Notes under the pieces: model-generated
What the model was told of the DNA's origin: nothing
Seen by the model: only the letters and a program-made list of their open reading frames with translations
Database searches by the model: none
Position numbers and translations under genes: made by a program
Shown here: positions 60,388 to 63,676 of the stretch, in pieces
How the letters are laid out: the number at the start of each line of letters is the position of its first letter
How positions within the stretch are numbered: position 1 is the first letter of the stretch
DNA from: Candidatus Aquiluna sp. IMCC13023
GTDB lineage: Bacteria > Actinomycetota > Actinomycetes > Actinomycetales > Microbacteriaceae
Assembly (NCBI RefSeq): GCF_000257665.1
Contig: NZ_AJKR01000002.1
Location: 1-64,000, forward strand
DNA length: 64,000 nt
Direction: 5' to 3'

Positions 60388-61731
60388 TTAGCTTGGCATA
60401 TTTACAAAGCGCGAGTACTGACCGTGGAATGCAACCGTGACGGTTCCGGTCGGACCGTTTCGCTGTTTTGCAAGGATCAGGTCCGCTTCGCCGGCCCTTG
60501 GGTGATCGCGCTCGTAAATTCCCTCTCGGTGCAACAGCACGACAACATCAGCATCCTGCTCCAGCGATCCGGACTCTCGAAGGTGAGAAAGCTCGGGGCG
60601 CTTGTCCTTGGACTGCTCCGCCTGACGGTTTAGCTGCGATAGCGCAACGACTGGAAGGCCCAACTCTTTAGCCAAGAGCTTGAGCGCCCTTGAGAACTCG
60701 GAAACCTCTTGCTGGCGAGATTCAACCTTCTTGCCGCTGGACATCAGCTGGATATAGTCAATAACCACGAGCTTCAGATCAACCTGCTGAGCCAAACGTC
60801 TGCATTTGGCTCTAATTTCAACCAGGGACATGTTTGGGCTGTCATCAATGTAGAGCGGGGCATCATTGATTCGACCGCGGACGGCTGCAAGCCTGGTCCA
60901 GTCGCCCTCGGAAATTGTTCCCTTACGCATACTTTGGAGGTAAATCGAACTTTCTGCGCTCAACATGCGCATTGCGATCTCGGAACGACCCATTTCCAAA
61001 GAGAAAAAGATTGTTGCCTGATTATGTCTAACCGATGCGTTCCTTGCGATATCCAGGGCGAAGGTCGACTTACCAACCGCCGGCCGTGCGGCGACAATAA
61101 TCAGCTGCCCGGCGTGTAGCCCGTGGGTATAGGCATCAAGATCTGTGAAACCGGTTGGGGTTCCGGTCATCTCCCCGCCACGGTTTTGCGCCAACTCGAT
61201 ATCGTGAATAGCGGCCTCTAGGGAATCGCTCAAGCCCACGTAATCCTCTTTAGATGACTGACTCGAGACTTTGTAGACCTCGGCCTGAGCCTGGTTCACT
61301 AGATCTTCGACCTCACCCTGGCTGTCATAACCGGATTGTGCAATTCTGGTTCCAGCATCAATCAGTCTGCGCAAAATAGCCTTGTCACCAACAATTTTCG
61401 CGTAGTAGCCGGCATTGGCGGCGGTTGGCACGTAGCTGGCCAGGGAGTGAAGGTAGTCAGAGCCTCCGGCTTTTAGTAAGTTTCCCTGCTTATTCAGTTC
61501 GTCGGTAACCGCGATCACATCGGTTGGCTCACCGCGACCGAACAGGTTCAAGATTGCGTTGTAAATAAGTTCGTGTTTGCCAGCGTAAAAATCGACACCG
61601 GCTATTTCTTCAACAACCTCGGCGACTGCCTCTTGGCTCAGCAGCATCCCACCGAGAGTGGACTGTTCTGCCTCAAGGTTGTGAGGTGCTACTCGAGGGT
61701 CAGATGCTGTAACGGTTGACAACATCGACAT
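60388..61731 (-). CDS. dnaB: Replicative DNA helicase
   Basis: 447 residues. N-terminal domain (PHNLEAEQSTLGGMLLSQEAV), linker, and RecA-like C-terminal domain with Walker A AARPAVGKSTFALDIARN near residue 215, Walker B KLVVIDYIQLM, the arginine-containing SQLNRQAEQS and the DnaB signature LRESGSLEQDADVV. No intein is visible. ATG 61731 has GGAGGAA. Upstream lies a cluster of DnaA boxes, so DnaA may control its expression. Unwinds DNA at the replication fork. Confidence 0.97.
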   Translation of the reverse strand: MSMLSTVTASDPRVAPHNLEAEQSTLGGMLLSQEAVAEVVEEIAGVDFYAGKHELIYNAILNLFGRGEPTDVIAVTDELNKQGNLLKAGGSDYLHSLASYVPTAANAGYYAKIVGDKAILRRLIDAGTRIAQSGYDSQGEVEDLVNQAQAEVYKVSSQSSKEDYVGLSDSLEAAIHDIELAQNRGGEMTGTPTGFTDLDAYTHGLHAGQLIIVAARPAVGKSTFALDIARNASVRHNQATIFFSLEMGRSEIAMRMLSAESSIYLQSMRKGTISEGDWTRLAAVRGRINDAPLYIDDSPNMSLVEIRAKCRRLAQQVDLKLVVIDYIQLMSSGKKVESRQQEVSEFSRALKLLAKELGLPVVALSQLNRQAEQSKDKRPELSHLRESGSLEQDADVVVLLHREGIYERDHPRAGEADLILAKQRNGPTGTVTVAFHGQYSRFVNMPS

Positions 61732-61799
61732 AAGATTCCTCCAGAACTAGATAAGACATGTATAGCTTGGGGCAGTGACACTTTGCGTACAAATCAGTC

Positions 61800-61975
61800 T
61801 GTGGATAACTGTGGATAACCCTGTGGAAACACGCCGATGATTTTGGTCTTCGCCTGTGGATAACCTGTGGATAAATAAACTGATATGTACTTTTTGCCCA
61901 GTGTTTTACTGGTTTCTGCCTGTGGATAACAAAATCTCTGAAAAGCCTAAAGCTCAGGCTTAGGGTTGTGGAAAA
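61800..61975. promoter_or_regulatory. Cluster of DnaA boxes upstream of dnaB
   Basis: TGTGGATAA, the complement of the consensus TTATCCACA, occurs exactly at 61800-61808, 61810-61818, 61855-61863, 61866-61874 and 61921-61929, all in one orientation. Near matches are TGTGGAAAC at 61822-61830 and TGTGGAAAA at 61967-61975. The region is A/T-rich in places and lies in the 304-base dnaB/rplI gap. It may be a DnaA titration or transcription-control site. The usual actinobacterial origin is beside dnaA-dnaN, probably beyond the right edge of the window. Confidence 0.9.
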
Positions 61976-61982
61976 CAACCAA

Positions 61983-62023
61983 ATAAAAAGGACAACCCAC
62001 ACTTTTTCGTGTGGGTTGTCCTT
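61983..62023 (-). terminator. Rho-independent terminator after rplI
   Basis: GGACAACCCACAC (61990-62002) pairs perfectly with 62009-62021 around a six-base loop, extended by two A/T pairs. A U-run follows on the minus strand. It ends the rpsF-ssb-rpsR-rplI operon just before the DnaA boxes. Confidence 0.93.
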
Positions 62024-62035
62024 CAGAAAATTGTG

Positions 62036-62488
62036 CTAGTTGGCAGAAACAACCTGCAGCTTTACCCGTGCCACAAGGTCAGAGTTCAAACGAACGCTTG
62101 CCTCGTAGTTACCGGTGGTGCGGATTGAAGATGCAAACTGGATCTTACGCTTGTCAACCTCGCCGAAACCAAGGGCCTGAATGGCCTCAGCCAGGTCAGA
62201 AGTCTTGATTGCGCCGAACAAGCGGCCGTTAGTTCCCGCCTTTGACTTGATTGTAATTAGAGCGCCCTCAAGCTTGCCCTTAATCTCCAGTGCCTCTTCT
62301 TCAGATGCAATGGCACGGGCGTCGCGGGCGTCGCGGATCTGGGTGACCTGCTTCTCGCCACCGCGGCTCCAGATAACTGCTAGTCCGGTTGGGATCAAAA
62401 AGTTACGTGCGTAACCGTTCTTTACCTCAACAATGTCACCGGCTGAGCCGAGACCTTGGACCTCGTTGGTCAAAATTAATTTCGACAT
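62036..62488 (-). CDS. rplI: Ribosomal protein L9
   Basis: 150 residues, normal length: MSKLILTNEVQGLGSAGDIV and EVKNGYARNFLIPTGLAV form the N-terminal RNA-binding domain, joined by the long helix (REARDARAIASEEEALEIKG region) to the C-terminal domain. ATG with AGGAG. Last gene of the rpsF-ssb-rpsR-rplI operon. Confidence 0.97.
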   Translation of the reverse strand: MSKLILTNEVQGLGSAGDIVEVKNGYARNFLIPTGLAVIWSRGGEKQVTQIRDARDARAIASEEEALEIKGKLEGALITIKSKAGTNGRLFGAIKTSDLAEAIQALGFGEVDKRKIQFASSIRTTGNYEASVRLNSDLVARVKLQVVSAN

Positions 62489-62774: not shown

Positions 62775-63266
62775 CTAAAAAGGTGCTTCGTCGGATGGGG
62801 CTTCTGCTGGGTTAGCCCAAGCATCCGCTCCAGAATTGGCCTGCTTCTTTTCTGCCTGAGCTCCACCCCATGGGGATTCAACCTGTGCAGAGCCTTCACG
62901 GGCACGCTTTGTAACAGTTGCTGTTGCATAGCGAAGTGATGGTCCAATTTCGTCAATCTCTAACTCGAGTGAAGCCCTGGCTTCACCCTGAGCGGTTTGG
63001 TAAGCAGAAGCCGGCTTCATGCGACCGGTGACTACAACTCGTGCTCCCTTGGTTAGTGACTGAGCAACATTCTCGCCAACCTCACGCCAAGCGGTGCAGC
63101 GAATCCATACGGTTTCGCCGTCAACAAACTCGTTTGTCTGACGGTTGAAGGTTCTCGGGGTTGAGCCAACGCGGACTGAGGCCACGGCGATTCCGCCCTG
63201 CGTGTAGCGCAGTTCCGGATCGTCAGCTAGGTTGCCAACGATCGTTATGACTACTTCGCCAGCCAT
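62775..63266 (-). CDS. ssb: Single-stranded DNA-binding protein
   Basis: 163 residues. OB fold with VVITIVGNLADDPELRYTQG, VWIRCTAWREVGENVAQSL and GARVVVTGRMK. A flexible linker and the acidic protein-recruitment tip DEAPF follow at the C-terminus. ATG shares a base with the rpsF stop (TAATG). Between rpsF and rpsR, the standard bacterial arrangement. Confidence 0.97.
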   Translation of the reverse strand: MAGEVVITIVGNLADDPELRYTQGGIAVASVRVGSTPRTFNRQTNEFVDGETVWIRCTAWREVGENVAQSLTKGARVVVTGRMKPASAYQTAQGEARASLELEIDEIGPSLRYATATVTKRAREGSAQVESPWGGAQAEKKQANSGADAWANPAEAPSDEAPF

Positions 63267-63676
63267 TAGTCGGCCTTAGCGCCTGTTGGACGCTTGCCAC
63301 CGCGAGCGCCGCCGCCACGAGGGCCACCACGGCCTGCGCGAGGAGGCTTCTCTTCGGGAACGAATTCGATTGGGTTGATGCTGAAAATTGCTTCTTCCAG
63401 ACGGAGCACCTTGGTGCGAAGAATTGACTCGTTCAGATTTAGCTGACGGTCAAGCTCTTGCACGGCTGCAGAAGTGGTGTTCATGTTAACCACTGCGTAG
63501 AGCCCTTCGGAGTGCTTCTGGATCTGATACGTCATGCGACGTCGGCCCCAAATGTCGATCTTGTCCAAGGTGCCACCAGCTGCGGTGATTACCGTTAGGA
63601 ACTTGTCGAGTGTTGGAGCGACAATGCGCTCGTCTAGTGAGGGGTCCATAATGACCATTAGCTCGTAGTTATGCAT
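63266..63676 (-). CDS. rpsF: Ribosomal protein S6
   Basis: 136 residues, longer than the ~96-residue core because of a C-terminal Arg/Gly-rich extension ([19 protein letters not shown]). The core starts [17 protein letters not shown] and includes [21 protein letters not shown]. First gene of the operon with AGGAGGTGGG upstream. Binds S18 and 16S rRNA. Confidence 0.96.

Follow-up and report, generated by a model that had tools for sequence, protein, structure and literature searches.

The rplI-dnaB gap and its DnaA boxes

The window, by which we mean the whole 64-kb stretch of DNA that was analysed (positions 1-64000 of contig C2), belongs to an assembly of 1.36 Mb, 99.46% complete, that was surveyed across its 6 contigs. 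Within the window, dnaB and rplI are separated by a gap of 304 bp. The genes and features at this locus, together with dnaA and dnaN on the same contig, are the following.

60388-61731, minus strand: dnaB, replicative helicase (NCBIfam TIGR00665)
61737-61742, minus strand: GGAGGA, likely ribosome-binding site of dnaB, read from the sequence
61759-61780, minus strand: TGTCAC-N10-TATACA, putative PafBC-type core promoter of dnaB (from the alignment; motif from the accessible text of PMC8151990)
61790-61792, minus strand: TTG, shared by all 20 genus gaps in the alignment and sitting where other family members have their -35
61800-61808, minus strand: exact DnaA box, -77 from the dnaB ATG, ending 7 nt before the conserved TTG
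61810-61818, minus strand: exact DnaA box, -87, within the run GTTATCCACAG, which does not vary among 19 dereplicated genus gaps
61822-61830, minus strand: degenerate DnaA box GTTTCCACA, -99, 2 mismatches
61827-61836, minus strand: CGGCGTGTTT element, invariant in the 19 dereplicated genus gaps, just upstream of the proximal boxes
61855-61863, minus strand: exact DnaA box, -132
61866-61874, minus strand: exact DnaA box, -143
61921-61929, minus strand: exact DnaA box, -198
61967-61975, minus strand: near DnaA box TTTTCCACA, -244, 1 mismatch; an exact box stands at the same place in many relatives
61987-62024, minus strand: rplI terminator, a stem of 16 bp followed by a T-rich tail
62036-62488, minus strand: rplI, ribosomal protein L9 (NCBIfam TIGR00158)
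62775-63266, minus strand: ssb (NCBIfam)
63266-63676, minus strand: rpsF (NCBIfam)
C2 76397-77914: dnaA
C2 78240-79370: dnaN

The pattern scan bears out what the earlier note had described; the minus strand of the rplI-dnaB gap carries five exact TTATCCACA boxes and two near matches, all pointing toward dnaB. No exact TTATCCACA box occurs elsewhere in the 64-kb window; 0.30 per window would be expected by chance, and five were reached in none of 100 dinucleotide shuffles. One-mismatch sites, at 14 in the whole window against a shuffle mean of 9.8, were equalled or exceeded in 9 of 100 shuffles and are thus not unusual. What is unusual about the window is its exact boxes and their clustering, not its one-mismatch total. 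The genome-wide count that the earlier note had proposed gave 14 exact boxes for the assembly, compared with 7 matches to the reversed pattern; the rplI-dnaB gap accounts for 5 of the 14, and outside it no two exact boxes lie less than 3 kb apart. A chance cluster is rejected on the basis of the window shuffles, the genus-gap shuffles and the density and counts of boxes upstream of dnaB in relatives.

Conservation within the genus and across the class

The genus sample comprised 22 genomes, 20 of them with a readable dnaB (G008 and G019 were left out). The earlier note had named the absence of boxes from close relatives as an outcome that would speak against its reading; instead, every one of the 20 genus gaps holds 3-7 exact boxes, 91 forward and 0 reverse in all, in addition to 25 one-mismatch sites, whereas mononucleotide shuffles yield 0.035 exact and 0.97 one-mismatch sites per 20 gaps. 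In the gap alignment, column identity is 0.79 for box columns and 0.62 for the other columns (p=4e-6 by column). Among the 19 dereplicated gaps there are four invariant runs of at least 8 positions, namely CGGCGTGTTT, GTTATCCACAG, AAGCTATACA and, at the distal box, TCCACAAC; the first three are found in the promoter-proximal part, which is the most constant portion of the gap. Individual box positions appear and vanish across the genus while the 3-7 exact boxes persist. Most neighbouring boxes (57 of 71 pairs) are spaced at 10-11, 44-46 or 54-56 bp, as if they fell into two helical phase classes. A CGGCGTTTC-like form of the CGGCGTGTTT element is seen in several other family members, including L039-L045.

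Beyond the genus, a deep survey looked for TTRTCCACA within 700 nt upstream of dnaB; here, as in the other counts, related genomes are kept as separate rows, so that independence is overstated. Genomes lacking a readable dnaB start were left out (G033 in the family, G045 and G051 in the order, G062, G076, G122, G126 and G148 in the class). Among other genera of the family, the motif was found in 12 of 16 loci (20 forward and 2 reverse; shuffle expectation 0.2, reversed pattern 1); other families of the order had it in 13 of 22 loci (16 forward and 9 reverse; 0.13 and 0), and other orders of the class in 58 of 95 (63 forward and 27 reverse; 0.43 and 6). The exact motif is therefore absent from these 700 nt in 4 of 16, 9 of 22 and 37 of 95 loci, respectively, and outside the family the direction of the boxes is mixed. 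Sparser boxes thus precede dnaB across much of the class.

A second set of 80 named loci, several of them the same genomes as deep-survey rows and not added to those counts, was divided into 39 actinobacterial loci, from which density was calculated, and 41 others (5 acidimicrobial and 36 non-actinobacterial). Box density in the 39 loci is 5.49/kb in the 500 bp upstream of dnaB and 0.028/kb elsewhere in the same loci, an enrichment of about 195-fold. An exact box was found upstream of dnaB in 1 of the 5 acidimicrobial loci (L121) and in 0 of the 36 non-actinobacterial ones. In neighbouring genera (L037, L056, L058, L060-L063, L072 and L082), one or two reverse boxes at -281 to -312 face the forward ones. 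As a further observation, the dnaB match is split within open frames of about 650-1550 codons, in an intein-like manner, in G036, G039, G042, G043, G057 and others.

In this genus dnaB lies 14.0-15.2 kb from dnaA in all 14 genomes with both genes on one contig, and the array might have been kept merely for its nearness to oriC. This possibility is weakened by G022, in which dnaB and dnaA share a contig but are about 450 kb apart, and the core is still found with dnaB. Two other genomes are of no help; G046, where about 268 kb separate dnaB from dnaA, lacks any box in the 700 nt upstream of dnaB, and G038, with about 130 kb between the genes, has two, both reverse.

The promoter of dnaB and its predicted control

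Because the rplI terminator (hairpin of -29.5 kcal/mol, z -7.6) divides dnaB from the ribosomal operon, dnaB probably has a promoter of its own, apart from rplI. Hairpins downstream of rplI can also be seen by eye in the alignment of other genus gaps.

Elsewhere in the family, the boxes stand in a defined geometry; TTG follows exactly 7 nt past the last forward box, and TANNNT comes next at a spacing of 17-18. This arrangement is present in 10 of the 12 loci with a forward box (15 tested; 0.14 in shuffles), and in none of the 20 genus, 10 nearby-genus and 56 order or class loci that have such a box. In the window, 22 nt separate the conserved TTG from the -10, more than a normal -35 would allow. 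We rejected a standard sigma-70 promoter in this gap, since a consensus scan found none and the family geometry is missing throughout the genus.

Downstream of the boxes, and without overlapping them, lies the conserved core TGTCAC-N10-TATACA, with 35 nt from the end of the array to the -10-like TATACA. It fits the PafBC motif, TGTC(GG/AG/AC)-N10-TANNNT in the accessible text of PMC8151990, except for its last base, which is A where the motif has T. Of the 20 genus loci, 15 have the looser motif TGTCR-N11-TA no more than 300 nt from dnaB (0.8 in shuffles), and 5 lack it. It also occurs in 7 of 10 nearby-genus loci (0.5), 6 of 14 family loci (0.3) and 50 of 118 other loci (1.8); many Actinomycetes have a PafBC-like core of this kind ahead of dnaB. 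In addition, two overlapping WYL-domain genes adjoin a tatC-like gene in the genome and resemble a PafB/PafC pair, in an order that we take to match pafB-pafC-tat; NCBIfam profiles assigned no name to the two WYL proteins. Compared with known PafBC (RecA-NDp) promoters, the core in the gap and the two adjacent WYL genes are shared, while the final A of the core and the nameless state of the WYL proteins in NCBIfam set this case apart. The dnaB core promoter of the genus thus looks like a PafBC damage promoter and may be used as one.

On these grounds we consider it likely that the cluster forms the regulatory region upstream of a promoter belonging to dnaB itself and that DnaA controls dnaB transcription, activation being the likelier sign. 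DnaA would bind the array and from there would most likely activate dnaB, and the supply of helicase would thereby track the level of the initiator. The fact that the boxes stop upstream of the core promoter suits an activator. Since the core looks PafBC-type, dnaB would probably respond to DNA damage as well. It counts against promoter control that five boxes exceed the needs of a simple promoter.

DnaA binding before dnaB is already known in mycobacteria. According to the accessible text of PMC7738170, the region upstream of dnaB was among the five most enriched DnaA sites of M. tuberculosis in vitro, and ChIP in M. smegmatis placed DnaA at the homologous site. Moreover, the DnaA mutant I282T bound less upstream of dnaB and uniquely under-expressed the gene, a link between binding and expression that rests on one mutant and a correlated change (PMC7738170). 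The M. tuberculosis/M. smegmatis site and the present one thus share a DnaA site upstream of dnaB, with binding shown there and predicted here; the array differs in that 3-7 perfect boxes, all pointing one way, are packed into a gap of roughly 300 bp. In C. crescentus, dnaB has predicted boxes upstream, belongs to the DnaA regulon and responds to DnaA (PMC8203912, citing Hottes 2005); this is a distant phylum, and an array is not mentioned in the accessible part of that paper. As for DNA damage, the induction of M. tuberculosis dnaB by mitomycin C is partly PafBC-dependent, yet dnaB was still over-expressed when RecA and PafBC were both depleted, and it has a putative SOS box (PMC8151990, in its accessible parts). 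In the literature that could be consulted, chiefly non-subscription papers, nothing was found that describes, for Microbacteriaceae, an array of boxes in front of dnaB, and dnaB is not named in the accessible parts of PMC6789036 and PMC8223512.

The earlier note had raised several readings of the cluster, and the coupling of dnaB transcription to DnaA is the best supported of them, being favoured by the conservation of the boxes with dnaB, by the promoter geometry and by the mycobacterial binding and expression data. Most likely, the array represents a known kind of switch in a form that is unusually dense and well conserved.

Titration, repression and the origin question

Judged by its sequence, the array is a cluster of consensus boxes outside oriC. 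Since oriC is about 16 kb away and the array has five exact boxes against one in the dnaA-dnaN gap, it would probably take up some DnaA, and titration as a side effect of the array is plausible. We regard it as unlikely that titration is the main role, with the array soaking up DnaA soon after oriC is copied and limiting re-initiation, and with its position before dnaB secondary. Such a role would agree with the array being the sole place in the assembly with two exact boxes within 3 kb, with the constant distance of dnaB from dnaA in the genus and with the persistence of 3-7 boxes despite the turnover of single positions, as if number counts. In B. subtilis, moreover, the loss of six clusters outside the origin leads to early initiation (PMC5295017), although their role is played down elsewhere in the same review, as far as its text was accessible. 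Yet the boxes stand at fixed positions relative to the promoter in the family and all point one way in the genus, distant relatives often retain just one or two, and in G022 the core has stayed with dnaB far from dnaA.

Known clusters resemble the array in part. E. coli datA is likewise distant from oriC and dense in DnaA boxes; it requires IHF and promotes the hydrolysis of ATP-DnaA. The D78 locus of Streptomyces coelicolor, a cluster of high-affinity DnaA boxes, shares with the array an actinobacterial setting near oriC; no TTRTCCACA was found within 500 bp upstream of dnaB in three Streptomyces/Kitasatospora loci (L077, L083 and L084). The B. subtilis clusters are also outside the origin, but there are six of them, with early initiation when all are lost, and here there is one, tied to dnaB (PMC5295017, accessible text). 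Perhaps, and we offer this only as a tentative and rather doubtful extension, the 300-bp element joins DnaA activation of dnaB, a PafBC damage input and the chief DnaA sink outside oriC. If this is true, each round of replication would reset the supply of helicase and the availability of the initiator together, and selection would hold the number of boxes while their positions turn over along the helix.

The opposite sign of control, in which DnaA at the array would lower dnaB transcription instead of raising it, seems very improbable. DnaA is able to repress, as at its own promoter (PMC8203912, accessible parts); here, however, the boxes sit clear of the core promoter on its upstream side, and the mycobacterial mutant combined less DnaA binding with less dnaB mRNA (PMC7738170).

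Weakest of all, and very unlikely, is the reading in which replication starts at the array, whether the array acts by itself or as one half of a split oriC together with dnaA-dnaN. The usual position of the actinobacterial origin is between dnaA and dnaN. As the earlier note had expected, the cluster lies outside it; the dnaA-dnaN gap is about 15-16 kb to the right of the array. One of its boxes is exact and three have one mismatch, and its A+T reaches 0.90 over 40 bp. The best 40-bp value in this gap is 0.775-0.925 A+T in 12 of 12 genus loci, while no 40-bp window exceeds 0.75 A+T in any of the 20 genus rplI-dnaB gaps (best 0.625-0.75). The AT-rich element and the usual actinobacterial position place the origin at dnaA-dnaN, and the suggestion in the earlier note that the cluster might serve as an origin is disfavoured by the lack of such an element. 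The single direction of the boxes also speaks against an origin, as does the fact that this gap is one among many box-bearing regions upstream of actinobacterial dnaB, of which one (G022) is far from dnaA.

In favour of an origin at the array are its dense consensus boxes and part of the GC skew, the check that the earlier note had proposed. The raw cumulative minimum falls at 65 kb in this contig (G000), and in G002 it is some 1 kb away from the dnaB gap; the support intervals of a step fit (54-66 kb in G000, 79-93 kb in G002) include the dnaB gap and exclude dnaA-dnaN. With gene direction fitted and all sites used, a switch at the dnaB gap is likewise preferred to one at dnaA-dnaN, by 2.1 (G000) and 1.5 (G002) log units. 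Against this, once gene direction is fitted at four-fold sites, hardly any replichore term remains and all 3 genomes slightly favour dnaA-dnaN, and G007 has no skew switch in the raw or all-site fit. The array is probably not the origin, and GC skew does not settle the matter. In G000, G002 and G007, four-fold sites around dnaA have a C-rich coding strand (-0.16 to -0.18); for the genes that lie between dnaB and dnaA, the corrected four-fold skew is about two standard errors above zero and exceeds that of both flanks.

Control of dnaB by DnaA, which we prefer, would take the mycobacterial observation further, to a pattern shared by much of the class and, in one family, to a defined promoter geometry. 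The small genomes with their single array would offer a setting in which the link between initiator and helicase supply can be tested.
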